Shown piece by piece: positions 27,386 to 46,924 of a stretch of DNA of 64,000 nt; within the stretch, counting starts at the first letter, position 1, and every line of letters begins with the position of its first letter. Made by a program: the position numbers and the translations under genes. Origin of the DNA: Methylobacter tundripaludum (GTDB taxonomy: Bacteria > Pseudomonadota > Gammaproteobacteria > Methylococcales > Methylomonadaceae); assembly GCF_002934365.1 (NCBI RefSeq), contig NZ_PTIY01000010.1, positions 124,001-188,000 on the forward strand, given 5' to 3'. The notes below the pieces were generated by a model, which worked only from the letters and a program-made list of their open reading frames with translations, searched no databases and was not told the origin of the DNA.

Positions 27386-27415
27386 AGCGGGATTCCGGCA
27401 ACCGCTTTATTTTTT
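27386..27415 (+). terminator. Terminator-like hairpin after the 67-aa gene
   Basis: AGCGG/CCGCT stem with an 11-base loop followed by TTATTTTTT. The T-run overlaps the 3' end of dsbD on the other strand. Confidence 0.45.
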
Positions 27416-29170
27416 GACAATGCCCAACTGGGCGAGAAATTTTTCGGCTTCCATATAACCGATAACCCGATATGACTGGCGTTCTCGCTGATCAGGTCCG
27501 AAAAAAAGTATCGCTGGCGGGCCGAGCAAATTAAATTTTTTCAGCAGTGCCTGCTCGGCATGTAAATTTTGCGTAACATCGGCCCTCACTAACACAACTG
27601 ACGATAAAGCATCCTTAACATCGGGATCGGAAAAGGTATAAAGCTCCATTTCCTTGCATAAGGCGCACCAGTCGGCATAAAAATCCAGCATGACCCAACG
27701 CCCTTGCGCATGAGCTTCTGCCAACGTTTGCTGCAACTCGTCGGCTGATTTGATCTGCTGAAACGGCAGCTTCGGCTGCTCTGCGCAGGCGATTGCCGCG
27801 ACACATAAAAGCTGCATAGCGTCGCGTTGCTGATGCGTAGCAATCCCTACCAGTAAAAAGATCGCGTAAGTCAGTGCCACCAGCCCGGCGCCTTTCCAGA
27901 GCTTCTTCCAACCCAGATACATCAGCGGAATCATCAGCAGAGCCAGCCAAAGCGATTGGGTAACCACCTCCGGCATGACACGTCCCAATAGCCAGATCGC
28001 GACGGCCAACAGCCCTACCCCAAAAACAGCTTTCGTGACATTCATCCAGACACCGGTTTTGGGTAACAGTTTTCCGGCGGAAGTCCCGATAATAAGCAGC
28101 GGCAGCCCCATACCTATCCCCAATGAGAACAGCGCCAATCCTCCCAACATCGCGTCGCCGGTTTGCCCGATGTAAATCAGCGCGCCCGCTAAAGGGGCCG
28201 TAATGCACGGCCCGACAGCCAACGCCGAAAGCATGCCCATAACCGCCGCACCCAACAGATTTCCGCCCCGTTGCTTGGCGCTGATAGTCACGATTCTTGA
28301 TTGAACAAAGGCAGGCATTTGCAGATGAAAAACTCCAAACATCGAGCAAGCCAACAAAACAAAAATCCCGCTGAACGCAATAATGGCCCAAGGCTCCAGG
28401 AAAAAAGCTTGCAGGTTGCTACCGAAAAGTCCCGCTAATACGCCGAAAATCGTATAAGTCACAGCGGAAGCGAATACATAAGCCAGAGACAACACAAAGG
28501 CTCTTCGGGTCGTCAGTCGCGCCCCCTGACCGACGATGATGCCGGAAAGAATCGGAATCATCGGAAACACGCACGGCGTAAACGCCAGCAACAAACCAAA
28601 TCCGAGGAAACTCAGGATAATCAGCCACAACGATCTGTCCGCCAGCGAGGCGGCGATACTGTCCTGTTCCGAGATAAACGGAGCTAAATTATCGGAACCG
28701 GAAGTCATGCCCCACCAATTGAAACTTTCATCCGCCAAATCGAAAGAAACGGTTTGTTGAACGGGCATATAACAAACGCCCGCATCCGCGCAGCCCTGGA
28801 AAGTGACTTCCAATACCAGCTTGTCCTGTTTTGGGTCCTGCCGCTGAAGAGCGACTTCTACCTCTAAATGATCCCGGAAAATTTCCACGTCACCGAAGAA
28901 TTTATCTTGTTTGGTATGGCCTGGTGGAAATATCTGTTCTCCCACTTTTATATCGGGAGTCAGCGAGACAAATTTGAATTTGTTGCGATACAGGTAATAG
29001 CCGTTCGCAATGTCCCAGGACAGTAATAACTTGTCCGATTTTTTCACCTTGGATGTGAATTGAAAAGCTTGCTCGGCCGGCAATAAATCCGCCGAATCGG
29101 CAGCGAACGCCTGACCGGCAACGCCGAACATCAGGCAAATTAGAAGTTTTAAGATTCCAGCTTTAACCAT
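27407..29170 (-). CDS. dsbD: Thiol:disulfide interchange protein DsbD
   Basis: Inner-membrane electron carrier that moves reducing equivalents from cytoplasmic thioredoxin to periplasmic thiol proteins (DsbC, CcmG, and copper-site thiols). The ATG at 29170 gives 587 residues: signal peptide, N-terminal beta domain with CADAGVCYMPV, eight membrane helices (FTPCVFPMIPILSG, GPCITAPLAG carry the core cysteines) and a C-terminal thioredoxin domain with WCALCKEME. A frame starting at 29215 would add 15 residues without support. It lies just upstream of the copper region, whose TlpA-like lipoprotein is a plausible client. Confidence 0.94.
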   Translation of the reverse strand: MVKAGILKLLICLMFGVAGQAFAADSADLLPAEQAFQFTSKVKKSDKLLLSWDIANGYYLYRNKFKFVSLTPDIKVGEQIFPPGHTKQDKFFGDVEIFRDHLEVEVALQRQDPKQDKLVLEVTFQGCADAGVCYMPVQQTVSFDLADESFNWWGMTSGSDNLAPFISEQDSIAASLADRSLWLIILSFLGFGLLLAFTPCVFPMIPILSGIIVGQGARLTTRRAFVLSLAYVFASAVTYTIFGVLAGLFGSNLQAFFLEPWAIIAFSGIFVLLACSMFGVFHLQMPAFVQSRIVTISAKQRGGNLLGAAVMGMLSALAVGPCITAPLAGALIYIGQTGDAMLGGLALFSLGIGMGLPLLIIGTSAGKLLPKTGVWMNVTKAVFGVGLLAVAIWLLGRVMPEVVTQSLWLALLMIPLMYLGWKKLWKGAGLVALTYAIFLLVGIATHQQRDAMQLLCVAAIACAEQPKLPFQQIKSADELQQTLAEAHAQGRWVMLDFYADWCALCKEMELYTFSDPDVKDALSSVVLVRADVTQNLHAEQALLKKFNLLGPPAILFFGPDQRERQSYRVIGYMEAEKFLAQLGIVKK

Positions 29171-29269
29171 AAGCAAGCTCTCCAACGAGTTAGATTGAAA
29201 GCAGGGGAAATTCAATATTAGGATTTGGTTAAAAATAACTTCTTGAAATCACTATTTTCGCTCGTCAAA

Positions 29270-29592: not shown

Positions 29593-30996
29593 TCAATAAT
29601 CCGGGGCGGCCCGGAAGGTCCAAATAACGGAAAGGTTACCGAAGAAGCCGTCACCCAACTGCACCTGCTGGTACTCTCCTCTGGCGTTTCTAGTCTTTTG
29701 GGAATTCAGGTCCTCGTAAATCGGTAAGCCGACCGACCCCCGTAACTTGAAGTTGCCGCCAAAGGCATTCAGGAACCGGTAGTCGGAAACGAACGCCAGA
29801 TTGGTGGACGTGCCTCCTGAATTGCCGATCTTGCTGCCCCGGTCTTTATTTTTATCCGTATAGCCGGCATCCATTTCGATACCGATCATCCAGTCGTAGT
29901 TTGGCGTGTAATGCAAGGCCAGACCCGCTGTAGCAACGTCGCCGAATTCAAAATTGTCGCTATTTTCCGGGTTGACATTGTAAAGGGCTGAGGCGTGCAG
30001 CCAGAAGTCCTTCCAACGTTGGGAATAGAGCATCCCCCCCGTGAAGGTCGCGGTGCCTTTGCCGAGTTGCAGTCCCGGTGATTGGGAAATCAAGCCGGTC
30101 GCGGCATCGCGGGTGGCGTTGAATTGACCGGTAGGCAAGCTGGTGCCGAGCAGGACGGTGGCGAACTGATCCCAGCGGGTGCTGCGCCATAAATTGTAGC
30201 GCCCTTCGAGGGTAATGTCGCCGAATCCGTTGGTATTATCGACCGTTTCCCCAAATGTTCCTGCTGTAGGTTGCAGCAGGGTAGTCATCCTTTTTTCAAA
30301 CCAGGGTGCGTTCATGAACAGCGCGAGATTGTCGGTCGGCGAGTAATTCACCGTCAAGGCTTGTTGCTGCACCTGCATTTCTTTCGGCGTTTTCGGCTGG
30401 GCCCTGTTGCTGCGAATATAATTATTCGGGTCTTCGCCATTGGAGCCGATCTTGAGATTGTCTTTTTGAGTATAACCGTAGACCATGCCGACGCTGAAGT
30501 TCCCTTTACCCGGCGTCACCGCGGTACGGATACGAAACGGTGCGGTTGTGCCTACCGGCGAAACATCATCGTAGGCAATGTTAAAATCGATCAGTTCGCC
30601 GCCTTCCTTGGCGGCAAACGCTTCGGCCTCCTCGCGCTTGGCGAAAGCAATGTAGTTGGGCACCATATCGGGAATCACCTTACTGCCGAGCACATAAGTA
30701 GCCGTTTGCGCATCCACCAACTCGCCTGAAACCCAATCATGCACTTTTACCGACTCAAATGCGGATATGCCGCCGGCATCCTCAACTTCCCTCAGCATAC
30801 AGGCGACGCCGCAGGTATATTCCTTCTTGCCGTCCTTGTAGACCAGTTCGGCGGCGCTCTTTTGGTACTGGTCGATCCACATGCCGCAAACCCGGCAACT
30901 TTCACGCTTGTGCGCCTCTTCGGCCGATACAGAGGCCGACAGCAATGTAAACTGGATTAACATCAGTATGAACGCTGTTTTAATGACCGTTTTCAT
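29593..30996 (-). CDS. NosL-domain / outer-membrane beta-barrel fusion protein
   Basis: 467 residues. A signal peptide (about residues 1-25) is followed by a NosL-like segment with the Cu-ligand type motif CRVCGMW (C34, C37) and a second pair CGVACM (C62, C66), plus the NosL-like AQTATYVLGSKVIP region. From about residue 160 to the end the sequence changes to alternating amphipathic beta-strands with aromatic girdles and ends in Tyr, typical of an outer-membrane barrel. The last gene of the operon. A NosL domain on a barrel is not a layout I know; the likely role is copper binding at the outer membrane, an inference. Confidence 0.75.
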   Translation of the reverse strand: MKTVIKTAFILMLIQFTLLSASVSAEEAHKRESCRVCGMWIDQYQKSAAELVYKDGKKEYTCGVACMLREVEDAGGISAFESVKVHDWVSGELVDAQTATYVLGSKVIPDMVPNYIAFAKREEAEAFAAKEGGELIDFNIAYDDVSPVGTTAPFRIRTAVTPGKGNFSVGMVYGYTQKDNLKIGSNGEDPNNYIRSNRAQPKTPKEMQVQQQALTVNYSPTDNLALFMNAPWFEKRMTTLLQPTAGTFGETVDNTNGFGDITLEGRYNLWRSTRWDQFATVLLGTSLPTGQFNATRDAATGLISQSPGLQLGKGTATFTGGMLYSQRWKDFWLHASALYNVNPENSDNFEFGDVATAGLALHYTPNYDWMIGIEMDAGYTDKNKDRGSKIGNSGGTSTNLAFVSDYRFLNAFGGNFKLRGSVGLPIYEDLNSQKTRNARGEYQQVQLGDGFFGNLSVIWTFRAAPDY

Positions 30997-31516
30997 AAAA
31001 AACTCCTTTATTCAGAATGGTTGTAAAGCGTTTTTCAAATTCTTCGATGCCGGCTTCCCCGGTGATCTTGTCCCGGACAATACCCTCCTCGTCGATAATG
31101 AAAGTGGTCGGCAAGCCGATGACGCCGAACTGTTTGGCCACCAATCCGTATTCATCGATCAGCATCGGATAGGTCAGGTGAGCGAATTTTTTGAGTCGCT
31201 CGTCGGTTTTGTCGGTTCGGCTTTCATTAATGGCTACCGGCATAAATTCCCGGTCTTTGTACTTTTGGTAAAGAGGTTCCAGCGACAACAGAATCTCTTT
31301 GTCGCAAAAACAACAATCGACACCCCAAAAGCGCAGCAGCGCGATTTTGCCTTTAATGTCTTTAGGCAAGGACACCGATTTCCCCTGAAAGTCGGTCAGC
31401 GTGACATCAGGGATAACATCACCGATCTGCAAGCCTGCCCGCTTATTGCAGCCGCCGAGCGCCGTAGCGATCAGCAGGGCCAGCAGCAGTAGTTTCACCG
31501 GGTTGATCGTGCTCAT
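30980..31516 (-). CDS. TlpA/ResA-like thioredoxin lipoprotein
   Basis: 178 residues with a lipobox (ALGGC, C23), so probably anchored in a membrane facing the periplasm. The thioredoxin fold keeps the region GKIALLRFWGVDCCFCDKE, whose active site is C68-C-F-C71 in place of the common WCxPC, and the cis-proline GLPTTFI. It overlaps the NosL gene by ATGA and the NosL-barrel gene by 17 bases. It likely keeps copper-site cysteines reduced, with DsbD as electron source; this is inference. Confidence 0.85.
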   Translation of the reverse strand: MSTINPVKLLLLALLIATALGGCNKRAGLQIGDVIPDVTLTDFQGKSVSLPKDIKGKIALLRFWGVDCCFCDKEILLSLEPLYQKYKDREFMPVAINESRTDKTDERLKKFAHLTYPMLIDEYGLVAKQFGVIGLPTTFIIDEEGIVRDKITGEAGIEEFEKRFTTILNKGVFYENGH

Positions 31517-32043
31517 GTCCTGCGATCCAACGATTCGATAACGGCGGGGGTTACCTCCTGAAAGCGGATGATGGATTTGCCTTTATGATCCTCCAGGAAT
31601 TCCTGGGCCGCTTCCCGATCCTTGAACGGCAGCAATTCATGCCCCATCGGACCCAATACATCCGAACCGAGCACATAAAAGGCCGATTTGGCATCGATCA
31701 ACTCCACTTCGTAATAATCGGTAACGTAAATATCCTTGATGTTTTCCGCCGCTTTTCCGGGCGTATATTTTGCTGTGTCGAAGATATGCTTGAACATATC
31801 TTTCGCGCCGTCGTAGAAATAGTAAGAACCGTCCGTGAACATGATTTGGGCTACCCATTTCGGGTACTTGTAGACAAACATGCCGCATACCGGACAGCGG
31901 TCGGTTTTTTTGATCGTAACCGTGGGTTCGTCGCCATAGCTGATGTTGATACTGAACAGCAGAAACAGCCCGAGCATTATTTTGGGATATATCCCCGTTC
32001 CCGGCTTAGGGCGTGCAGGAACCGATTTAATAGACAACTTCAT
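31513..32043 (-). CDS. NosL-family copper-binding protein
   Basis: 176 residues from the ATG at 32043. An N-terminal membrane anchor or signal segment is followed by the NosL signature RCPVCGMFVYKYPKW (C50, C53, M55) and the AKSAFYVLGSDVLGPMG segment. NosL proteins bind Cu(I) and act in assembly of the nitrous oxide reductase CuZ centre; no nos genes are seen here. This copy sits between the multi-pass membrane protein and the TlpA-like gene. Confidence 0.85.
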   Translation of the reverse strand: MKLSIKSVPARPKPGTGIYPKIMLGLFLLFSINISYGDEPTVTIKKTDRCPVCGMFVYKYPKWVAQIMFTDGSYYFYDGAKDMFKHIFDTAKYTPGKAAENIKDIYVTDYYEVELIDAKSAFYVLGSDVLGPMGHELLPFKDREAAQEFLEDHKGKSIIRFQEVTPAVIESLDRRT

Positions 32044-33040
32044 AGGCAATCACCAAACTTGAGGAAACAATTTCATAACTGACCAGCGCGGTAAACGCGG
32101 CATATAAAATGACGGAAGCCAGAGCCAGTTTGCGGATGAATCCGCCGAGCATAGCTTGCAGGCTTTCCACTTGGCGAAAGGGAAGCAGCGCGCCGACGCC
32201 GAGACCCGACACCACTGCGCCGAACAACAGCATATAAAGCAGGTAGCCGATATAGCTGTAGTCTTCCATGATGATGCAGAACGGACAGTGATGGGTCGGC
32301 AGTTCATAGATGTACAGCGAGATGAAAGATACGATGGAAACCAGCGAGACGAGAAACATCAGCAGACTCAACGCGGCATACAGATAGCCGCCTAAACCTT
32401 TTAAATAGAAAAAAATCCCGCAAAGCAGCGTACCCGACATGGCGCTGTAAAAAATCCACATCATCGGCAATGCAGGCATTGATGCAATTTCGGAACCTAT
32501 GCCCGTTACCCGCTCGCTGCTGAACAAACTGCCGCAACAGGAGGTAATCACATCGGCCTCCATGTTCAAAAAATAGGCGCTTTCCAGTATCGTCTCCAGG
32601 ATAATAAAGGGCGCGATGAACGCCAGCAGCAGGTATTTTTTCTTGATCAGCGGGTAATCGTAACCCTGGTTGTCGGCATAATTCAAAACCAGCCACAATC
32701 CGGCCAGGATAAAGCTGAAAATCTTCAGTACCAGCGTCGGATAGCCGAAACCGTCGACGTTTAAGGTGCCGGCGGCGCACATTGCGCCGACGAACAGCGG
32801 GGTCAGGCTGTCGGCGGTAAATATGTACAAAAACAGCGACAGCAGTTGCAGGCCGAAAACATACGAGAGCAGCGTCGAAATCAGGTAGGTTTTGCGCTCC
32901 AGCACCAACTGCAATTCGTGGCCGCTCTGTATATCCCAATGTCTTAGGATTTGCACGCCGTAAAACACCGCATACAAAACCATACCGCTGCCTATATAGG
33001 CGGCCAGCAGATTGGCGATAACAGTGGGATGCAGAATCAC
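32027..33040 (-). CDS. Multi-pass membrane protein with Cys pairs, NosL-cluster associated
   Basis: 337 residues starting at a GTG two bases after the ATPase stop. About nine hydrophobic segments. Two striking cysteine clusters: a CCGS in a loop near residue 166 and HHCPFC near residue 255, both reminiscent of metal or redox sites. I do not know a named family; the context (NosL, ABC, TlpA-like) points to copper or thiol transfer across the inner membrane. The 3' end overlaps the nosL start by 17 bases. Confidence 0.75.
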   Translation of the reverse strand: MILHPTVIANLLAAYIGSGMVLYAVFYGVQILRHWDIQSGHELQLVLERKTYLISTLLSYVFGLQLLSLFLYIFTADSLTPLFVGAMCAAGTLNVDGFGYPTLVLKIFSFILAGLWLVLNYADNQGYDYPLIKKKYLLLAFIAPFIILETILESAYFLNMEADVITSCCGSLFSSERVTGIGSEIASMPALPMMWIFYSAMSGTLLCGIFFYLKGLGGYLYAALSLLMFLVSLVSIVSFISLYIYELPTHHCPFCIIMEDYSYIGYLLYMLLFGAVVSGLGVGALLPFRQVESLQAMLGGFIRKLALASVILYAAFTALVSYEIVSSSLVIAYEVVY

Positions 33041-33042
33041 AA

Positions 33043-33714
33043 CTAACCCTCGATTTGGCCGTCGCGGAGGTTGACCACCCGGTCCACCATCGAAGATTCA
33101 TAGACCAGCGGATCATGGCTGGTGATGATCACGGTTTTACCTTCCGCCTTGAATTTCTCGATGATTTCCATGAACCGGTACGACAGCTTGGTATCGAGAT
33201 GGGCGGTCGGCTCATCGGCAATGATGATATGCGGATCGTTGATCAGGGCGCGCACGATAGAGGCGCGCTGGGCTTCCCCGCCGGACAACCACTCCACCTT
33301 AGAAGCGGCCTTGTTGGCGATATTAAGTTCGGACAGACCGTTCATCGCCTTGATTTTCAGATGCGAACGCTTTTCCCCGAGCGGGTAGGCAGGCAACATC
33401 ACGTTATCCAATACCGATATACCCTTAATCAGGTTCGGTTGCTGAAAAATGAAACCGAAAGTCTTGCGGCGTATGTCGGTCAGGAACCGTTCCGGCAGGC
33501 TGGTGATTTCGCGTCCTTGCAGCTTTACCCGCCCCGCCGAAGGGCGGCTCATGCAACCGACGATGCTGAGCAGCGTGGTTTTTCCCGAACCGCTGGGGCC
33601 TTTCAGCACGGTGACCTGGTTTTCCGCTATACGCAAATTGACACTGTTCAGCGCCGAAAACTCGCTCGGATTGCCCGCATTAAACACTTTTTTAACATTG
33701 ACCAGTTCGATCAT
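33043..33714 (-). CDS. ABC transporter ATP-binding protein (MacB/LolD type)
   Basis: 223 residues, complete ABC ATPase: Walker A GPSGSGKTTLL, signature WLSGGEAQRASIVRAL, Walker B IIIADEPTAHLD and a switch His. The family is that of LolD/MacB/FtsE, which couple ATP hydrolysis to periplasmic motion rather than to substrate passage through the membrane. Forms a pair with the FtsX-like permease encoded next upstream. Confidence 0.93.
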   Translation of the reverse strand: MIELVNVKKVFNAGNPSEFSALNSVNLRIAENQVTVLKGPSGSGKTTLLSIVGCMSRPSAGRVKLQGREITSLPERFLTDIRRKTFGFIFQQPNLIKGISVLDNVMLPAYPLGEKRSHLKIKAMNGLSELNIANKAASKVEWLSGGEAQRASIVRALINDPHIIIADEPTAHLDTKLSYRFMEIIEKFKAEGKTVIITSHDPLVYESSMVDRVVNLRDGQIEG

Positions 33715-33716
33715 GA

Positions 33717-34952
33717 CTATTCTCCAGTAAATCGCATCGCCGAATCAGGGTCGATGGTTGCAGCCCGCCAGATCGGAACAATGGTCGCCACCGTGTAGGG
33801 AACCACAGTCAGGAAAAACAGCGTCGTCAGCTGTTCGAGATTGACGAAAGGCGTCAGCTCGAAATTCGGGTAAAGACTCGACCAGCCCTTCAGCGCCGGT
33901 TCGAAGACAATGGAGCCGGTAAAAAACACATGCACATAAGCCAGAATCACGCCGCTGAAAAAAGCCGTCAGCGAAACCACGGCCCCTTCCCAAAATTTCA
34001 TCTGGATCACGTCCGACGTTTCCCAGCCCACCGCCTTGAGTATGCCGATTTCCCGCCGCTCCCCTGCGCTCAGACCCGAAGCCTTGTCCCAAGCGAAAAT
34101 AACAAATGCGAGCACCGCCGCCGAGAAAATGACGATCATCATGCCGCCGCGCCAGTTGAAAATGGAGTCGTAAGTCCTCAGAATCTCGTCGCGAATAATC
34201 GGCCGGGCATCGGGTAGGTGTTTCTTTATTTTCGACGCCACCATTTCCACTTCGCTGGGATTGTTGACGGCGACGGTAAGATCGGTCACATGGCTCTGGT
34301 CGATGCCGAACAGTTTTCTAAAATCTTCGCCGGTAATCAGCATCAAATCGGAGGAAACCAGTTCCGATTGCGAGGACAGGACGCCCGCGATCCTGAAATT
34401 CATCACCTTGCCGTCAAAGGCGCGAAACGGCATGTAATCATCCTTGCCGATGTTGCGAAGACGGGCGACGCCGTTGCCGATAATCAGCGTTCCCGGTTCG
34501 AGCACCGCGCCATTGAGCTCATACAAGGGTCTGGCCGACTGTCCGCCGGATTCGCTTTCAACCACCGTGGTCTTCGCGGACGGCTTGGCGGCGTCGCTGC
34601 TTGGCGGCGTCAGCAGCGTGTAATTGGCGCTAACCAGACTGTCGTAATAATAACCCCATAACCGGCTTTCGACCGAGGCCACCCCTCGGATGCTTTTAAT
34701 GGTTTCGATATAACTGGCCGGAAAAAGATCGTGCCGCCCGGCGACGATTTTTTGCACCACAATTTCCGGCGCGCCCTTCAGGATCAGCGAGGCTTCTTTT
34801 TTAATCGCATAAGTGAAGAACATCGTCGAGGCCAGAATAAAGACGATCAGCGTATATAAAGCCAGCAAGCCGAAGTTTTTCACCTTTCTGCGCAGCAACG
34901 AGGAGATCGTGAAATCGATAATGTAACGTTGTTTTTCAATCCAGTTTCTCAT
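33717..34952 (-). CDS. FtsX-like ABC transporter permease (MacB/LolC-like)
   Basis: 411 residues from the ATG at 34952, which overlaps the small membrane gene stop (ATGA); the frame upstream of it is unrelated. Topology: one membrane helix near the N-terminus (residues 24-45), a large periplasmic domain, then three helices near the C-terminus, the FtsX arrangement. The conserved SAGERREIGILKAVGWETSDV segment is present. With the ATPase it likely works as a mechanotransmitter moving a periplasmic copper or NosL complex; this is inference. Confidence 0.9.
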   Translation of the reverse strand: MRNWIEKQRYIIDFTISSLLRRKVKNFGLLALYTLIVFILASTMFFTYAIKKEASLILKGAPEIVVQKIVAGRHDLFPASYIETIKSIRGVASVESRLWGYYYDSLVSANYTLLTPPSSDAAKPSAKTTVVESESGGQSARPLYELNGAVLEPGTLIIGNGVARLRNIGKDDYMPFRAFDGKVMNFRIAGVLSSQSELVSSDLMLITGEDFRKLFGIDQSHVTDLTVAVNNPSEVEMVASKIKKHLPDARPIIRDEILRTYDSIFNWRGGMMIVIFSAAVLAFVIFAWDKASGLSAGERREIGILKAVGWETSDVIQMKFWEGAVVSLTAFFSGVILAYVHVFFTGSIVFEPALKGWSSLYPNFELTPFVNLEQLTTLFFLTVVPYTVATIVPIWRAATIDPDSAMRFTGE

Positions 34953-35245
34953 GGGCGATCGATAATCCTTTCGGGTGGTTGGGTGAACGAACCGGACGGG
35001 AAGTGTTCCAGCGACAGCGGATGGTCCTGGAACGCGGTATTTAAATCGGCTTGCGACAGATGCCGGGTGTAGCGGGCTTCGGTGAACAGGCACAGATCGG
35101 TAAGCTGTAGTGCCTTGACCAGCGCCGATTTTTCTTCGAGGCTTTCCTGCTGCGCCTTTGCGCTAAAAGAGGCATGCATCAGCAGCAGACCCAGAAAAAA
35201 AACGCCGGTCGATAAATACAAAAAAAATAACGAGGAATTTCTCAT
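34949..35245 (-). CDS. Small membrane-anchored protein, first gene of the NosL-ABC operon
   Basis: 98 residues from the ATG at 35245 (an in-frame TTG at 35251 is possible). One N-terminal hydrophobic segment (SSLFFLYLSTGVFFLGLLL) is followed by a periplasmic tail with TDLCLFTEARYTRHLSQADL. I do not recognise a named domain; conservation next to an FtsX-like permease suggests an accessory subunit. Overlaps the permease start. The leader to the sigma-54-like promoter is about 190 nt. Confidence 0.7.
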   Translation of the reverse strand: MRNSSLFFLYLSTGVFFLGLLLMHASFSAKAQQESLEEKSALVKALQLTDLCLFTEARYTRHLSQADLNTAFQDHPLSLEHFPSGSFTQPPERIIDRP

Positions 35246-35760: not shown

Positions 35761-37050
35761 TTATTCCGGCATAACCCGGCGCCACAACTGCTTCAACTCC
35801 CGAATCAAGCGTTGCTGCTCGGTTTCTGTTGCCGGAATTTCCTGCTCCACAGGCTGCGTTTTTTCCGCCCTACCCGCTTCAGGCTCGTTGTCAACGACAA
35901 TAAAGGTTCCGGAAATCATCCCCATCCAGCAACTCCACGGCACCACGCCGGTCTCGGGGGGCGTGAACTCAATGACCTGAATGCCGGGCTCGAACTTAAT
36001 ATCAAGCCCGTACTGCGGCACCACGATTGCCTTGTTGCATTCGTTTAGTTCCTTGGCGTTGATCACCCATTTGACCGGAACGCCTTTGCGTAATGTAAAT
36101 TTGTTCGGTTTGAATCCGGTTTTAATCACATCCATGTTGATGATTTGTTCGGTTTCGCAGGAAGGGCTTTCAGCGACCGTCGGCGACAATTGCTGCGACA
36201 CGCGGGCAACCAGGGTATTGAAATCAACGCCGGTACCGGTGACCGCCAAGCCGCGGTTCAGCATGATTGCGCCCAGCGCCATGACGATCACCCCGGAAGC
36301 TTTCAGCAGTTTCGGCGTCAGATTGGTCGAAAGCAGACTGGTCAGAAACCCGAAACCCAGCAATAACGGCAAAGTGCCGATGCCGAAAAAGAACAGAATC
36401 GCCGCGCCTTGCGACCAGCTGCCGGTGCCGGCCGCCATCACATACATCGCTTGCAGCGGCCCGCAAATAATCATCAAACCGTTCAGCAAGCCGATCACAA
36501 ATGGATTGCTGTGCCTGCGGTACTCCTTGCCGACAAAGCGCATCAGGAACTTCGGCGCTTTAAACTGAAAACGGCTCAACGACGGAAACACTTCCAGCAT
36601 GTGCAATCCGAACAGAACAAGAAAAACGCCCGCCGCGACGCCGACTGCACCTTGCGTGTAAGGGGTGAACGCAACGATTGAGCCGAACGCACCAAACAGC
36701 GCGCCGATCAATGTATAAGAAATCGTTTTACCGATACCGTAAAGAAAATGCGTGGCGTAGGATTTATGTCCGTTGGTAGCCGATTTTGCCGTGTAACCGA
36801 GAATCAGCGGGCCGCACATGCCGACGCAGTGAAAGCTGGTCAGGAAGCCGATCAGGATCAACAGGCCATAACTCATGTCGCGACTGAGTTTAGGCATGTC
36901 GGAATGACTCATGAACCAGCTGTCGAGCCAAAGAATCAAGCCGATGCCAAAAAGCGCAAATGTGACCGCTACGACTTTTTTTAATACCGAAAACAAAGCG
37001 TTAGGACGATGAACCGGATCAGGTTGAAAACTCTCGTTGTTACTATTCAT
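35761..37050 (-). CDS. SafE-type membrane protein with C-terminal cupredoxin domain
   Basis: 429 residues. After an N-terminal segment, the SafE/TauE-like part begins with TSFHCVGMCGPLILGY, a Cys-Met-rich first-helix motif typical of copper-handling CcoH/SenC-like members of the family. About seven helices follow. The C-terminus has a cupredoxin-like domain (TGFKPNKFTLRKGVPVKW, then ECNKAIVVPQYG and PWSCWMGMISGTFIV), where the conserved Cys-Met-Met region could bind Cu. Downstream is the NosL-ABC regulatory region, but the gene itself is upstream of it and reads the same way, so it may be separate. Confidence 0.85.
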   Translation of the reverse strand: MNSNNESFQPDPVHRPNALFSVLKKVVAVTFALFGIGLILWLDSWFMSHSDMPKLSRDMSYGLLILIGFLTSFHCVGMCGPLILGYTAKSATNGHKSYATHFLYGIGKTISYTLIGALFGAFGSIVAFTPYTQGAVGVAAGVFLVLFGLHMLEVFPSLSRFQFKAPKFLMRFVGKEYRRHSNPFVIGLLNGLMIICGPLQAMYVMAAGTGSWSQGAAILFFFGIGTLPLLLGFGFLTSLLSTNLTPKLLKASGVIVMALGAIMLNRGLAVTGTGVDFNTLVARVSQQLSPTVAESPSCETEQIINMDVIKTGFKPNKFTLRKGVPVKWVINAKELNECNKAIVVPQYGLDIKFEPGIQVIEFTPPETGVVPWSCWMGMISGTFIVVDNEPEAGRAEKTQPVEQEIPATETEQQRLIRELKQLWRRVMPE

Positions 37051-37381: not shown

Positions 37382-37741
37382 ATGAATCACATATCTACAG
37401 AAACACATTCGACCCCGAACCAGGGAAAAACGGCCATGACAGCAAGCCATTCGACTAAAGGCGAGCTGGTAGTGAAGGGCGTTGCAACGACCATGGCGGC
37501 GGCAACAATCCTGGAAACGGGCAAAGGCGTCATGACTACGCTGGCCAAACACCCGCTTGTGATGTTCGGAATGGGTTTTGTTGCCGGTTATCTGACGCAT
37601 AAATACCGTAAAGAAATTATTGTGCTCACTAGCAAAACCGCCGAACAAAGCAAGGATTTTGTCTTGAAGCAAAAAGAACATCTTCAAGACTTCCTTGCGG
37701 AAAGCCTGCAGGATGCCGAAGACACTGACACTACAAAATAA
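37382..37741 (+). CDS. Small single-span protein of the HP-FGxGxVAGY-KYRK family (copy 1)
   Basis: 119 residues from the ATG at 37382; a second possible start is the ATG at 37436-37438 (MTASHSTKG). A single glycine-rich membrane segment (about residues 52-72) holds KHPLVMFGMGFVAGY, followed by KYRKEI and a charged amphipathic tail with FVLKQKEHLQDFLAESLQD. A paralogue at 47783-48025 shares the core and the tail. Function unknown; all copies sit near copper ATPases. Promoter: TTGTCT and CAATAT with 17 bases between (37343-37371), which would leave almost no leader for the first ATG. Confidence 0.7.
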   Translation: MNHISTETHSTPNQGKTAMTASHSTKGELVVKGVATTMAAATILETGKGVMTTLAKHPLVMFGMGFVAGYLTHKYRKEIIVLTSKTAEQSKDFVLKQKEHLQDFLAESLQDAEDTDTTK

Positions 37742-37978: not shown

Positions 37979-38299
37979 ATGGCACATGTACACGGAGCAA
38001 AGGCTGTAGCCGAGACTGGAACGGCAAAAATGATGGACTCCACAATGGGAAAAATGGGCATGGGGTCGATGATGGAGGGAAGCATGAGCTCAATGATGAG
38101 CGAGGGCATGGGATCGATGATGAAAACGCCTGCAATTGCTTCGGGCGTTGCCGTATCCGCCGGTTCCAGCGCCGGGAAAAGCGTTATCAAAAAAATCATC
38201 ACACATCCCTTGACGCTTTTCGGTCTCGGTGTCGTTGCAGGCTACTATATTTATAAGTATCGCAAGTCTATCATTTCGGCTTCCGACGAAACCCGGTAA
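37979..38299 (+). CDS. Met-rich single-span protein of the HP-FGxGxVAGY-KYRK family (copy 2)
   Basis: 106 residues, with a strong Shine-Dalgarno (AAGGAGCG) before the ATG. The N-terminal half is rich in Met: 13 of the 31 residues from 18 to 48, as MG/SMM repeats, plus His3 and His5. The C-terminal half carries the family core THPLTLFGLGVVAGYYIYKYRKS. Met-rich stretches of this kind bind Cu(I) in CopB/PcoA-type proteins, so a membrane-tethered copper sink is the likely role, by inference. Lies directly upstream of the copper ATPase at 38501. Confidence 0.8.
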   Translation: MAHVHGAKAVAETGTAKMMDSTMGKMGMGSMMEGSMSSMMSEGMGSMMKTPAIASGVAVSAGSSAGKSVIKKIITHPLTLFGLGVVAGYYIYKYRKSIISASDETR

Positions 38300-38500: not shown

Positions 38501-40984
38501 ATGGACACTGAAATGAAAGCTTCCGATACCGGCAGTTTAACCCACGGCAAAGTAGTTCATGCACTGAACCGGCGAGTCCGTATTATTGCCCCGATTCTGC
38601 GCAAAGATCCTGAACGGGCATGCGTTCTGGAGATCCTGCTGCAAAAGCGGGAAGGCATCGAAAAAGTCCGCACAGTTCCCGATATTGCTTCCATAGTCAT
38701 CCACTTCGATCCCGATAAACTGCCGAAAACAAAGCTGCTCTCCCTGTTGGATGCGTTACTGGCGAATCTGGGCAAAAAAACCACAACTGTTTTCAATAAC
38801 GCTACGCAATTAATACCTGCCGAGGGCGATGAACATCTTGCCGAACAGGAGTTCAATCTCAGTGTCGATGGGATGAGCTGCGTATCCTGCGCACTTTTAA
38901 TCGAGATGCTGTTGAACCGGGACCCGCGCATTTCGTCGGCGAACGTCAATTACGCTACAGAAACCGCTACGGTGACCGGTCGAACCACCAAAGAAAACGT
39001 CTGCATGTTGATCGGGAACATGGGCTACAAAGCGCAAAATCTTGATAGTTTGGCTCAGCGCCAAATTATGATCGCGCGCGAAAAACAACGCCTGATCGAT
39101 GCCCGGCGGCGCGCCATTTTGGCCGGAGTGCTGAGTCTGCCTGTCATGATTATCGGCATGACCGCGCCCACGTCCCGGTTTTGGCACTGGACGCAGCATT
39201 TGCTCGCCACGCCTATCGTGCTCTGGGCAGGATGGCCGTTCTTTGATAAAGCCGTAAAACTGGCCCGGCAACGGGCCACCAACATGGACAGCCTGATTGC
39301 GATGGGAGTGGGTGCATCTTACGGTTACAGCGTGGCGTCCCTGCTGGCCGGTAAACGGGGGCAGTACTTCGATTCCGCAACCGGGATCATAGCCTTCGTC
39401 CTGATCGGCCGCTACCTGGAGGAAAAAGCCAAAGGCAAAGCCCATGAAGCGATCCGCTCTTTGGTCGATTTGCAGCCGCAAAACGCAACCGTCATGCATG
39501 GCAATAAAAAAGTCCTGATCAGCGTTGATCAGGTTCACGTCAACGACATATTGCTGATTCGCCCCGGCGAAAAAATACCGACTGACGGCATCGTGATTGA
39601 CGGCCTTTCGACGGTCGACGAATCCATGATAACCGGCGAAAGTCTGCCGGTTGTAAAAGAGCACGGTCACCATCTTGTCGGCGGCTGCATTAACGGCAAC
39701 GGCGTTCTAAAAATGCGCGTCACCGCTGTCGGCACGGATACGGTGCTGGCAAACATTATTCATATGGTGGACCAGGCCCAGTCGTCCAAATTACCGATTC
39801 AAAAAACCGTGGATCGTATTTCCGCTGTTTTTGTGCCCTCCGTGATAGCGGTATCGTCACTTACCTTCCTGGCCTGGCTGTCGGTCGGCGTGGGTTTTCG
39901 AATCGCCTTCAGCAATGCCGTAGCGGTACTGCTGATCGCCTGCCCCTGCTCGCTCGGTTTGGCGACGCCGATGGCGATCATGGTCGGCACCGGGCAGGCG
40001 GCTCGGCGCGGGGTTTACATCCGCAACGGGGAAAGCCTGGAGATGGCGTCGAAGCTGACCACGATCGTGTTCGATAAAACGGGAACCATCACCGAGGGCA
40101 AGCCTCGGGTTACCGACTTTATTACCCTTGCTAAAAAGAGCGAAGAACGCATATTAACCTTGGTTGCTGCGGCCGAATCCGGCTCCGAGCATTTTCTGGC
40201 GAAAACAATCGTTGCTTATGCCCAAGAACATCATGTCAGCCCGGTCAAGGTCGAAGCATTTACCAATGTCCCCGGCCACGGCATTCATGCCAGGGTGGAC
40301 GGTTGCGATGTCTTGATCGGCAACCGCTCCTGGCTTGAAGAATCGGGCGTTGATTTAAAAACCCTGGCGAAACGCGCCCTACCCTTAGCCGAACAAGGCA
40401 AGACCCCGGTTTATGTCAGCGTGGACGGCAAGGTCGCCGCGTTGTTCGGCATCGCCGACCAGCCAAGGGCGAACGCCGGGGAGGCTATAGAAAGACTGCG
40501 CAAGCTGGGGCTCAAGCCCATGATGGTCACCGGAGATACCGAACAAACCGCCCGTTACATTGCCGAACAGGTAGGCATCGATACCGTCATTGCGAACGCC
40601 AAACCGGACCGGAAACTCGAAATTGTCCGCGAGTTGCAGGCTCAGGGTAATAAAGTAGGCATGATCGGCGACGGTATCAATGATGCGCCCGCCCTGGCAT
40701 CGGCCGATGTCAGCTTTGCGATCGGCACAGGCACCGATGTCGCTATCGAAACCGCAGACCTTACTCTGGTCAGCGGCGACATCAGCAAGGTCGCCGATGT
40801 GATGGAATTGAGCGGCGAGACCTTGCGCGTGATCAAGCAAAACCTGTTCTGGGCGTTGGGTTACAACACGATTGCTATTCCGGTCGCGGCCCTGGGCAAA
40901 CTCAACCCGATGATTGCGTCGGGTGCGATGGCGTTAAGCTCCATTTCGGTAGTGCTTAATTCCCTGAGGTTGCAGCGCAAGTAG
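38501..40984 (+). CDS. P1B-type copper ATPase with N-terminal HMA_2-like plus HMA domains (copy 1)
   Basis: 827 residues. The first about 95 residues are an HMA_2-like fold (RRVRIIAPIL...) without CxxC. A regular HMA domain follows with GMSCVSC (C127, C130). The transporter core has CPCSLG (C481, C483; Ser instead of the common Ala), the phosphorylation site DKTGT (D525), TGD and GDGIND motifs, and the TM7/TM8 Cu(I) signatures YN and MALSS. The nucleotide-domain SEHP motif is SEHF (H564, F565). Likely exports Cu(I) to periplasm or inner vesicles. Follows the Met-rich small protein, probably co-transcribed. Confidence 0.88.
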   Translation: MDTEMKASDTGSLTHGKVVHALNRRVRIIAPILRKDPERACVLEILLQKREGIEKVRTVPDIASIVIHFDPDKLPKTKLLSLLDALLANLGKKTTTVFNNATQLIPAEGDEHLAEQEFNLSVDGMSCVSCALLIEMLLNRDPRISSANVNYATETATVTGRTTKENVCMLIGNMGYKAQNLDSLAQRQIMIAREKQRLIDARRRAILAGVLSLPVMIIGMTAPTSRFWHWTQHLLATPIVLWAGWPFFDKAVKLARQRATNMDSLIAMGVGASYGYSVASLLAGKRGQYFDSATGIIAFVLIGRYLEEKAKGKAHEAIRSLVDLQPQNATVMHGNKKVLISVDQVHVNDILLIRPGEKIPTDGIVIDGLSTVDESMITGESLPVVKEHGHHLVGGCINGNGVLKMRVTAVGTDTVLANIIHMVDQAQSSKLPIQKTVDRISAVFVPSVIAVSSLTFLAWLSVGVGFRIAFSNAVAVLLIACPCSLGLATPMAIMVGTGQAARRGVYIRNGESLEMASKLTTIVFDKTGTITEGKPRVTDFITLAKKSEERILTLVAAAESGSEHFLAKTIVAYAQEHHVSPVKVEAFTNVPGHGIHARVDGCDVLIGNRSWLEESGVDLKTLAKRALPLAEQGKTPVYVSVDGKVAALFGIADQPRANAGEAIERLRKLGLKPMMVTGDTEQTARYIAEQVGIDTVIANAKPDRKLEIVRELQAQGNKVGMIGDGINDAPALASADVSFAIGTGTDVAIETADLTLVSGDISKVADVMELSGETLRVIKQNLFWALGYNTIAIPVAALGKLNPMIASGAMALSSISVVLNSLRLQRK

Positions 40985-41327: not shown

Positions 41328-42254
41328 ATGAAAACATCCGACTACATACAAAAAATTTTTGGGGTACGCATTCGTGAACTTAGAAAAAGCAAGGGCTTTT
41401 CTCAAGAGAGTTTTTCTTTTGAATGTAAGCTTGATCGCACTTATGTTAGTCAAGTTGAACAAGGTAAAAGAAATATCAGCCTTCAAAATATTAAAATCAT
41501 GGCTGATGCTCTTAATGTTCCTATTGCAGCATTATTTTCTGAATCTTATTTATCTCCGAAAGCCATCAAAGAACCCGAAATTGTTTATAAGGTTAAAGAC
41601 AATTTTTCAATTCAATGTGGATTCCAAGTATCGGGGCAAGACATCTTGACTGCGTCAAATGCAACTGCAGAACAATTACAACTACTCCCATTTTCCCTTT
41701 ACCAAAGTATCGACCTAAAAACATTGAGTGCTATTGTTGGCGCAGTATTTGTAGGTGACCTTGCCGAACAAGTGGGTGCAATTGTCAATCCTATTGAAAA
41801 AGGGCATCCTGATATTATTCCCGCTTCTGGACACATCGCTACTGAAGCACAACTGAGAAACTATCCAGATGGACTTGAAATTAAAGTTACCGTTGGCAAC
41901 GTATCAACAGGTAGTAATTTACAACCTGGTACTCCACGCATAAATCAATTAACGGGAATAACATGGCAAGCACACCATAGAGAGGTAAAAAGTCTACTTG
42001 GTCTTACTATTGATTTTGCAGGAACTTTACATGAGGGTAAATATTATCCTGTTATAACTGGGGTATTTTATGCAAATGATCTTACCGAAAACGACTGGGG
42101 AGAAATTAGCGGGACAACAGGAAGAAATACTAAAGTTACTGGCATGAAAATATCAGGAAAAAAGAAAATGGGTAGCGGATGGGTTTTACTACTTGATAAA
42201 GAAATGTATCTGAAAAAATATTCAGCTAAATTAAAGATTATTCTGGAACGATAA
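41328..42254 (+). CDS. Controller-like HTH / type II restriction endonuclease fusion
   Basis: 308 residues. Residues about 10-72 form an XRE-type helix-turn-helix (RIRELRKSKGFSQESFSF, DRTYVSQVEQGKRNISL) like an R-M controller protein. The rest has a PD-(D/E)XK-like layout: HPDII near residue 164 and GLEIKV near 183, a candidate catalytic site. The 2-bp gap to the methyltransferase and the C-box in front support an R-M operon with regulator and endonuclease on one polypeptide. The recognition sequence cannot be read from here. The DNA is AT-rich compared with its neighbours. Confidence 0.75.
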   Translation: MKTSDYIQKIFGVRIRELRKSKGFSQESFSFECKLDRTYVSQVEQGKRNISLQNIKIMADALNVPIAALFSESYLSPKAIKEPEIVYKVKDNFSIQCGFQVSGQDILTASNATAEQLQLLPFSLYQSIDLKTLSAIVGAVFVGDLAEQVGAIVNPIEKGHPDIIPASGHIATEAQLRNYPDGLEIKVTVGNVSTGSNLQPGTPRINQLTGITWQAHHREVKSLLGLTIDFAGTLHEGKYYPVITGVFYANDLTENDWGEISGTTGRNTKVTGMKISGKKKMGSGWVLLLDKEMYLKKYSAKLKIILER

Positions 42255-42256
42255 AC

Positions 42257-42997
42257 ATGTTCTATTACTATGGTCGAAAAAAGCAGATTGCTAAGCACTA
42301 CCCAATACCAAACTATGATGTCATTATAGAGCCATTTGCAGGGGCGGCGGCATATTCGTTTCATCATAATTCAATAGCTAAAAAAGTTATTTTGATTGAA
42401 AAGGATGAAAAGGTTGCCAACATTTGGAAATGGTTTATTCACGAAGCAACTGAACGAGACATACAGTCGCTTCCTGACCTACAGCCAGGGGAAAGAAGTA
42501 CAGAGTTTCTTCATATAATTCACGCGGCAACCAAAATGGCTTTTGCATTCAAAAGAATTAAGGTAACGCCAGTTCTTGCTCGTAACTGGGAAATTAGTAG
42601 AAGAGTATTTGCCAAACATTTGCATGAAATCAAGCATTGGGAAATCATCTGCGGAGACTTTACGGAAGCTCCTGATATTGAAGCAACATGGTTCATTGAC
42701 CCACCCTATTTAGGCGAGCCTGGGATGGGCTACCGCCACAGTAGTGCATTGATTAATTACACAGAACTTGCTAAATGGGCATTATCCAGAAAAGGAGAAA
42801 TAATTTGTTGCGAAGGAATCGGCGCAAATTATTTACCTTTTACTCCTCTGATTGAATTAAAGGGTATTGCAGGTAAAACTAGTAAAGAAATGATTTTTTA
42901 CAAACAAGGAAGTAGAAATAAACAAAGCAATATACTCGATCTTATAGAGCCGGGTAGGTCGGGTAACCGCCTTTTGTTGCCCGACATTTCAGTCTAA
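42257..42997 (+). CDS. Site-specific DNA adenine methyltransferase (D12 class)
   Basis: 246 residues. The AdoMet motif I appears as EPFAGAAAYS and the catalytic motif IV as DPPY, in the order of the Dam/D12 class that methylates adenine N6. It begins two bases after the endonuclease stop, so the pair is one transcript. It should protect host DNA from the fused endonuclease. Base composition is AT-rich like its neighbour, hinting at transfer. Confidence 0.85.
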   Translation: MFYYYGRKKQIAKHYPIPNYDVIIEPFAGAAAYSFHHNSIAKKVILIEKDEKVANIWKWFIHEATERDIQSLPDLQPGERSTEFLHIIHAATKMAFAFKRIKVTPVLARNWEISRRVFAKHLHEIKHWEIICGDFTEAPDIEATWFIDPPYLGEPGMGYRHSSALINYTELAKWALSRKGEIICCEGIGANYLPFTPLIELKGIAGKTSKEMIFYKQGSRNKQSNILDLIEPGRSGNRLLLPDISV

Positions 42998-44467: not shown

Positions 44468-46924
44468 CTATTTTTTATTTAATCTTAATGAGTTAACAAT
44501 AACCGAAACCGAACTTAAAGCCATCGCGGCCGAGGCTATCATCGGGTTGAGATTTCCCATCGCCGCAACCGGAATGGCAACGACGTTGTAACCGAACGCC
44601 CAGAACAGGTTTTGCTTGATGATCCTGATGGTATCGGTGCTTAACTGGATAGCCTCGGTCACTTTGGTGATGTCGCCGTGCACCAGCGTCATATCGGCCG
44701 ACTCAATCGCGATGTCGGTGCCGGTTCCGATCGCGAAGCCGACATTGGCAGCTGCCAATGCAGGTGCGTCATTAATGCCGTCGCCGATCATGCCGACCTT
44801 TTTGCCTTCATTTTGAAACTGGTGAATGATGGCCAATTTTTGTTCGGGCTTGGCATTGGCGATAACCGTTTCAATGCCCACGATAGCGGCAATATAATTT
44901 GCGGTTTTTTCGGTGTCGCCGGTTACCATCAGCGTATGTACGCCGAGTTTTTTCAGGTGCTGAATGGCTTGTACGGCCTGAGGCCTGGGCTTGTCGGCAA
45001 TGCCGAATACAGCCGCCGCTTTGCCGTTGACCGCCATAAATACCGGCGTTTTACCTTGCCCTGAAAAATCGCCTGCCGCAGCCAACAAACCCTCAACCTC
45101 TACGCCTTTCTCCAACAGCCAGGCTTTATTGCCCAGCAACAGCATTTTGCCGTCAACTGACGCTTCGATGCCCCGGCCGGTTTCGCTGTAAAAATGCGTG
45201 CATTCCTGCAATTCGATAGACCGTTCCTTGGCATAAGTCACAATCGCCTTGCCCAAAAAATGTTCCGAACTGTGTTCCGCCGAGGCCGCCAACCGGATTA
45301 TTTTTTCTTCGCTGAGCCGGGACAGTTTGAGCAAATCGGTGACTTTAGGTTTGCCTTCGGTAATCGTGCCGGTTTTGTCGAAAACGACGACATTGAGCTT
45401 CGCCGCCGTCTCCAGGCTTTCCCCGTTGCGGATATAAATCCCTTCGCGCGCTGCCTGCCCCGCGCCCACCATAATCGCCGCCGGTGTCGCCAAGCCCAAT
45501 GCGCAAGGACAGGCGATCAGCAATACCGTGATCGCGTTACCGAAAGCGAAGCCGAACGGCGCGCCTACCAGCAGCCAACCGGCCATGGTTAAACCGGAAA
45601 GAACCATCACCGACGGCACAAACACGGCGGAAATTTTATCGACCTGTTTTTGGATCGGCAACTTGGTCGCCTGCGCCTGATCGACCATATGCACTATGCC
45701 CGCCAACACAGTATCCATGCCCACCGCCGTTACGCGGATACGCAACGCGCCGTTGCCGTTGACGCAGCCGCCAATCACTTGGTGGCCCACGTCTTTGACG
45801 ACGGGCAGGCTTTCTCCGGTCACCATGGCCTCGTCAACCGTCGATACGCCGTGGATGACGATGCCGTCGGTCGGTATTTTCTCGCCGGGACGCACCAGCA
45901 GCACATCGTCTATCGCGCAATCGTCAACGGCAATGACTATTTCCTGTCCGTCGCGAATCAGGGTTGCGGTTTGCGGTTGCAAGTCGACCAGTTTGCGTAT
46001 CGCTTCGCCGGCTTTACCTTTGGCTCTCTCCTCTAAAAAGCGCCCCAACAGCACAAAAGTGATGATGGCCGCGCCCGCTTCGAAGTAGATATGACCGCTG
46101 CGCCTGAATAATGCAGGCAAGCTGTAGCCGTAAGCCGAGCCGACGCCGAGAGCGATTAACGAGTCCATATTGGCTGTTCGTTGCTTTGCCAAGCGCCAGG
46201 CTTTGGTAAAAAACGTCCAACCCGACCAGAAAACCACCGGCGTGGTCAGCGCAAACTGCATCCAATGCAGCCAGCGCGAGGTCGGCATGCTCATGCCGAC
46301 AACGACAACCGGAAAACTCAAAACAGCGGACCAGATAAACCGGCGTTTGGCGACAACAATCCTTTGCTGCTCTTTTTCGATCAGTTTTTTACGTTGCGAT
46401 AAGGTATCCATCGCGTAGGTTTGATAGCCCAGAGTCGCAACCTTGGCGCTCACGTCATCCTTGACTAACTGACCATGAACGGTCAGGGTTGAGGTTCCGA
46501 AGTTTACGCTGGCTTGCTTGATTCGGTGGTCGCGCTTTAGCACCATTTCGATCAGCAAGGCGCAGGATGCGCAGGTCATGCCTTCAACGGCAAGATCGAC
46601 TTCCTGTACCGGACCTTCAAAGACCTTCTTTTGTTGTTCGTGCTGCTCGGCCTGTTTCCGGGCAATATTGCCCAGCACCGCATCCAACATAATCAGTAAA
46701 TTCTTTTTGGGCAACCGGGTCGGGTCGAACTGAATAACCACAGAGCCCAACGCGTATACTGAGCGCACCCTTTTTATTTCAGGCCGCTTTTTTAAAAGAA
46801 TCTCGAAAATATAGCCGCGCTCCTGATCGTTTTTCAAGATCGGCGAGATGATTCGGATACGTCGGGTTAATTGGTGAACCAGCTGAAAATTTTTCGGAGC
46901 CGGATGAGAAGTTTGGGTATCCAT
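44468..46924 (-). CDS. P1B-type copper ATPase with N-terminal HMA_2-like plus HMA domains (copy 2)
   Basis: 818 residues, the same architecture as the 38501 protein: HMA_2-like N-terminus without CxxC, an HMA domain with GMTCASC (C118, C121), CPCALG, DKTGT and the TM7/TM8 YN / MALSS signature. The SEHP motif is again SEHF (H555). The two are clear paralogues with conserved SEHF and the same HMA pair. Located between the HMA_2 gene and the SafE gene in one minus-strand operon. Confidence 0.88.

Follow-up and report, generated by a model that had tools for sequence, protein, structure and literature searches.

Within a stretch of 64,000 nucleotides from Methylobacter tundripaludum (contig NZ_PTIY01000010.1, positions 124,001 to 188,000; hereafter the window), seven genes on the minus strand at 29593-35245 encode a module that combines NosL proteins with an ATP-binding cassette (ABC) transporter. 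We propose that this module is an ATP-driven machine that handles Cu(I) in the cell envelope independently of the nitrous oxide reductase gene nosZ, a reading to which we give a probability of roughly 0.45. Six observations made directly on the genomes and models carry the proposal: the order of the genes, their conservation, the co-occurrence of the membrane protein D with NosL, the rarity of nosZ, the fold class of the permease B and the linkage to copper-type CusA. The cargo, its direction, the formation of a complex and the role of each part in the copper model are what we infer.

All seven open reading frames (ORFs), designated A to G in order of transcription, are uninterrupted in an ORF check of the window. 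A (34949..35245, starting at the ATG at 35245) and B (33717..34952, starting at the ATG at 34952) share the common junction ATGA, B/C and C/D nearly abut, and D/E, E/F and F/G overlap. An earlier note on this DNA, made from the letters alone, had described seven such minus-strand genes, and both this layout and its identifications of B, C, E, F and G agree with our ORF check and our Pfam and NCBIfam searches. B is an FtsX-like permease (PF02687, 31.8 bits; cut-off 25.5), modelled with a large extracytoplasmic domain at a mean predicted local distance difference test (pLDDT) score of 81.1. A Foldseek search of this model against the PDB returned 65 matches at E<=0.001, headed by LolE, LolC, MacB, a Streptococcus transporter and HrtB, and a profile search against the PDB returned LolF, YtrF and LolC. 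C (33043..33714) is an ATPase of the LolD/FtsE/MacB type (ABC_tran, 101.5 bits), so that the MacB/LolD-type ABC system of the earlier note is upheld in both the ATPase and the fold of the permease. An FtsX-like permease with an extracytoplasmic domain, paired with a LolD/MacB-type ATPase, is the combination that marks type VII ABC transporters, and it is the one found here. In NCBIfam, C scores under the equivalog cut-offs for FtsE, LolD and MacB, and the scores obtained for B and C were 44.7 of 362.45 bits for LolC/E, 168.3 of 307.75 for LolD and 166.6 of 966 for MacB. By sequence and predicted fold we therefore assign B and C to a type VII ABC unit that is neither LolCDE nor MacB proper. The small protein A, which has a single membrane-spanning helix and a tail that is short but conserved, finds at most chance-level matches in Pfam and NCBIfam and none in the PDB; 12 of its residues are identical in 80/80 aligned rows, some of which represent duplicate places.

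Protein D (32027..33040) has no Pfam or NCBIfam family, no PDB sequence match at E<=10 in a profile search and no Foldseek fold match at E<=0.001. Its predicted structure consists of eight long helices (mean pLDDT 86.4). Seven residues, M87, C88, C168, C169, H250, H251 and C252, are invariant in 43/43 aligned proteins, and C255 is cysteine in 40/43 and aspartate in three (L063, L070 and L078). The conserved residues map to loops 2, 4 and 6, where lysines or arginines (K/R) number 0.23, 1.63 and 0.72 per sequence respectively, against 1.60, 2.14, 2.12 and 2.07 for loops 1, 3, 5 and 7. Because of these low counts, the Met/Cys/His loops are predicted to face the periplasm.

Since D is unique, we used it as a tracer of the module. 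It is present in 6/81 genomes of a sample of the host's order and in 10/274 of a class sample, two genomes being common to both. A profile scan of GTDB contigs gave at least 594 pattern matches, 556 of which encode a relative of D, and the best 80 were kept as loci. By title these come mostly from Methylococcales, Desulfobacterota-type groups, Nitrospirae and bins named Deltaproteobacteria; three (L032, L038 and L056) duplicate contigs of other samples (G001, G027 and G046). In the order of Pelotalea chapellei (G367; Geobacteraceae), 86/141 genomes carry D, some as fragments.

The window holds two NosL domains, one in E (31513..32043, with an alternative TTG start possible at 32049) and one in G (29593..30996), scoring 121.6 and 69.2 bits for PF05573 (cut-off 24), and these are the only NosL matches in the host genome (4.18 Mb, completeness 99.92). 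E matches solved NosL chains in the PDB. PMC6530538 describes NosL as a chaperone for Cu(I), with the CxM motif as the presumed copper-binding site. The C-x-M motif is present in both window proteins, as CPVCGM and CRVCGM, and by pattern CxxCGM is found in 120/121 NosL proteins near D, the remaining one reading CPVCGM further in.

The usual annotation of NosL is that of an accessory protein of nitrous oxide reductase. The host genome has no full-length nosZ (best match 38.7 bits over a C-terminal stretch), nor does any of the six D-bearing order relatives; near-full-length copies in that sample occur only in G055 and G061 (475 and 472 bits, under the 625 cut-off), both of which lack D. Among 58 other D-bearing genomes, comprising 50 of the 80 public loci and eight further genomes, nosZ was found in five and never near D: in four it lies on another contig, and in the fifth (G205) it is on D's contig, 2.2 Mb away (1.1 Mb if circular). 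In the 141 Geobacteraceae-order genomes, NosL occurs in 92, D in 86 and nosZ in one. Both D and NosL are present in 83 of these, D alone in three, NosL alone in nine and neither in 46, which places NosL in 83/86 D-positive and 9/55 D-negative genomes (Fisher 2.6e-24, uncorrected for phylogeny or incomplete genomes). As NosL follows D and nosZ does not, the module is a NosL system independent of nosZ, and the accessory-protein label is misleading in that order. These counts support the earlier claim that the locus is not tied to denitrification. A remnant of a nos cluster was also considered and is rejected on the same counts.

Gene order was compared across 95 sequences, namely the 80 loci, 14 further stretches and the window, by running window-gene profiles against their six-frame translations. 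The order A-B-C-D is nearly constant, and a core of A-B-C-D with NosL recurs across phyla. In 51 of the 80 loci that are well flanked (3.6 kb or more ahead of D and 2.6 kb or more behind it), A lies within 6 kb of D in 49, B in 50, C in 51 and NosL in 46, 29 of them with two copies; F is found in 21, and Z (the gene upstream of the module, described below) or another DsbD-type domain in 12. In the methanotroph form, as in other gammaproteobacterial loci, NosL comes after D; elsewhere it precedes A, often as two copies, the usual form outside the methanotroph clade being NosL-(NosL)-A-B-C-D. The exact seven-gene order singled out by the earlier note is the arrangement of the methanotroph clade, but the module as such is no speciality of methanotrophs. 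In a tree of 90 D proteins, the methanotroph sequences form one clade (100/100) inside a larger multi-phylum set; the D of the host shares 93% identity with its counterpart in a Methylobacter metagenome-assembled genome. This nesting suggests that the module was transferred into methanotrophs, although the tree is midpoint-rooted and bins can hold foreign contigs. The clade also takes in single bins titled Nitrosomonas (L045), Methylomirabilis (L049) and Nitrospira (L051), whose D genes reflect either transfer or wrong binning. A viral or plasmid origin was also rejected: not one of seven pattern matches among viral contigs encodes a D relative, and D had no match at 1e-5 in 72,556 plasmid records, from which records of or near its own genome may be absent.

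The earlier note had also suggested that the module perhaps serves copper enzymes of a methanotroph, and had proposed a test of its co-occurrence with pmoCAB. We searched for pmoA in the order sample only and found it in 68/81 relatives, the host carrying two copies. D is present in 5/68 of the pmoA-bearing relatives and in 1/13 of those without a pmoA match. This link fails because D is rare among pmoA carriers, most of the 80 loci come from other groups and 86/141 genomes of the Geobacteraceae member's order carry D; Geobacteraceae and sulfate reducers are not known to oxidise methane with particulate methane monooxygenase (pMMO). Service to pMMO as a general role is accordingly rejected.

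Copper as the likely cargo, also proposed in the earlier note, gains support from four sides: the CxxCGM motif of NosL, the Met/Cys/His residues of D, neighbouring CusA with its methionine triad, and multicopper oxidases. Within 10 kb of D, 18/80 loci have a CusA-type frame and 15/80 a CusB-type frame, in several arrangements. All 15 long CusA frames keep methionine at the positions of E. coli CusA 573, 623 and 672, a triad whose role in CusA we presume; three short frames fell outside the comparison. As a baseline, 24 carrier genomes of ~101 Mb in total (rounded sizes) hold, by manual count, ~50 rows of heavy-metal efflux resistance-nodulation-division (HME-RND) pumps above cut-off, or 118 RND rows at 1e-100. 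By chance, 0.6-1.5 would be expected in the 1.24 Mb of loci, a comparison in which the profiles differ and some baseline rows are the D neighbours themselves.

Several observations weigh against an envelope machine for copper homeostasis. No gene of the window encodes CusA, and CusB is likewise missing from the neighbourhood of the module there. Among loci of the methanotroph form CusA occurs only at L045, and genome-wide the association of D with HME-RND pumps is not significant (77/86 D-positive vs 44/55 D-negative, p 0.14); both results argue against export as the general role. Five of the 51 well-flanked loci have no NosL within 6 kb (L058, L070, L077, L081 and L099); L070, one of the aspartate variants of D, also lacks A and B near D. 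The charge count of the long loop 4, which holds the CC pair, supports its periplasmic side weakly. Finally, the multicopper oxidase neighbours are also compatible with enzyme loading, which gives that alternative more weight and our own reading less.

This alternative, which we consider unlikely while ranking it first among the competitors, is that the module matures some cuproenzyme apart from NosZ: the ABC unit would enable NosL to supply Cu(I) to an enzyme, periplasmic or outer, such as a large multicopper oxidase. Multicopper oxidases detected by the Cu-oxidase_2 profile lie within ~10 kb of D in 7/80 loci (L059, L077, L091, L098, L105, L106 and L109). They measure 748 to 1594 amino acids in the frames called, and the four histidine motifs are complete in six of them, L077 showing two in a frame cut by the locus end. 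Such a role would repeat the known logic of NosZ maturation, in which NosL works with an ABC transporter, as set out in PMC7558416. However, CusA is also present in six of the seven oxidase loci, where the oxidase may accordingly be part of an island for copper resistance. Seven loci are also few, and by the same profile no multicopper oxidase adjoins any methanotroph-type locus. A scan of 103/286 other nearby frames found histidine-kinase domains as the commonest (5) and Cu-oxidase_3 in two, again in keeping with enzyme loading, but no other single enzyme family recurs among them.

On the copper-homeostasis reading, B and C would form a type VII, or mechanotransmission, ABC unit, with A as a small anchored subunit and D as a membrane partner offering a periplasm-facing Met/Cys/His site for Cu(I). 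NosL, in one or two copies, would act as the Cu(I) carrier, and ATP hydrolysis would move the extracytoplasmic part of B and so drive the exchange of Cu(I) between NosL and D. F (30980..31516), a TlpA/ResA-like protein with an AhpC-TSA/ResA-like match, a CxxC motif and a lipobox-like stretch, may, together with DsbD and where the two are present, keep thiols reduced. G, in which the NosL domain is fused to a predicted outer-membrane barrel (PF13557, 39 bits; cut-off 22), may keep copper close to the outer membrane; the route across the envelope, from the inner membrane to the outer one, that the earlier note sketched is one that we likewise infer. Copper would go onward mainly to homeostasis or export, through CusBA in several anaerobes, and not to nitrous oxide reductase. 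More tentatively, the module may represent a novel class of Cu(I) machine powered by ATP, made of a type VII ABC unit, the orphan protein D as metal site and NosL as carrier, that is widespread in anaerobic metal- and sulfate-reducers, shared horizontally with methanotrophs and the main partner of NosL where nitrous oxide is not reduced.

It is improbable, in our judgement, that the ABC unit instead relays thiol redox power or exports a small molecule, be it a sulfur species, a thiol or a compound resembling haem, with NosL only protecting or using the product. Among the matches listed, the haem exporter HrtB gave B its highest target-normalised TM-score (0.63), CPFC in D resembles a CxxC motif, and F and DsbD are thiol proteins; PMC6530538 carries the suggestion that NosDFY supplies sulfur for CuZ. 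A metal site fits D better, however, given that C255 is replaced by aspartate in three proteins while both histidines and C252 are constant, and F accompanies D in fewer than half of the well-flanked loci, which means that the module does not always include thiol maintenance. Least probable is a LolCDE-like sorter that would carry lipoproteins of the cluster, namely F and some of the NosL proteins, to the outer membrane. By sequence the nearest types to B and C are LolC/LolF and LolD/FtsE, and F has its lipobox-like stretch, but a rough lipobox pattern occurs in 9/121 NosL near D, the LolC/E and LolD cut-offs are far off and D would be left unexplained.

Comparison with known systems places the module, as a copper machine, close to NosDFYL, which likewise pairs NosL, as a Cu(I) carrier on the periplasmic side, with an ABC transporter. 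Unlike NosDFYL, most carriers of the module have no nosZ and its permease is FtsX-like, NosY belonging to another ABC type; we know of no counterparts of A and D in NosDFYL. With the type VII systems LolCDE, MacB, HrtBA, FtsEX and YtrEF it shares the fold class of B and the ATPase type of C, and it differs from them in its sub-equivalog scores and in its fixed partners A, D and NosL. CusCFBA is linked to it through the CusA genes described above, and NosL could stand in for CusF. NosL-type proteins also occur apart from NosZ, as in MccL. A NosL family protein outside a nos cluster is described in Sulfurospirillum, with no ABCD partner mentioned in the accessible part of PMC6242987. PMC10974252 names NosL among the unique predicted functions of Methylocaldum marinum S8, and this protein may belong to the module, one of our loci (L046) being from Methylocaldum. 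Among the matches listed by searches of open-licence full texts none described the module, a coverage that leaves out subscription journals and preprints. NosL working with an ABC transporter is already known; what is new, as far as we are aware, is the FtsX-like permease, the pair of orphan partners and a distribution poor in nosZ. The module thereby brings two unnamed, strongly conserved protein families, A and D, and a testable idea of ATP-driven copper hand-over outside the cytoplasm, where it probably constitutes a distinct route of copper handling.

Upstream of the module in the window, Z (35761..37050, minus strand) combines a DsbD_2 membrane domain with a cupredoxin-like part by profile match, and downstream lies DsbD (27407..29215, minus strand; PRK00293, 612.5 bits); Z together with DsbD or a related thioredoxin-like protein accompanies the module in many methanotroph loci. 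An extra N-terminal GMHCxGC motif of the heavy-metal-associated (HMA) type was seen in 4/17 rows of Z (L052, L014, L056 and L046), L014 and L056 being the same place. A scan for promoters and terminators was uninformative, with 10 promoter-like sites where 10.4 were expected and 19 terminator-like sites where 14.9 were. No more than 18 kb from the module are three P1B-type metal ATPases that carry CPC motifs, at 38501-40984 (plus strand), 44468-46924 and 50415-52655; their motifs we take to be of the copper type, two of the three carry an HMA_2 domain, and the first adjoins the module in several methanotroph loci. Between Z and this first ATPase are two small proteins, at 37382-37741 and 37979-38299, and relatives of the former adjoin Z and a P1B-type ATPase in 5/80 loci. 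Between the metal ATPases, 41328-42997 holds a gene with a helix-turn-helix domain followed by one matching a D12-class DNA methyltransferase.

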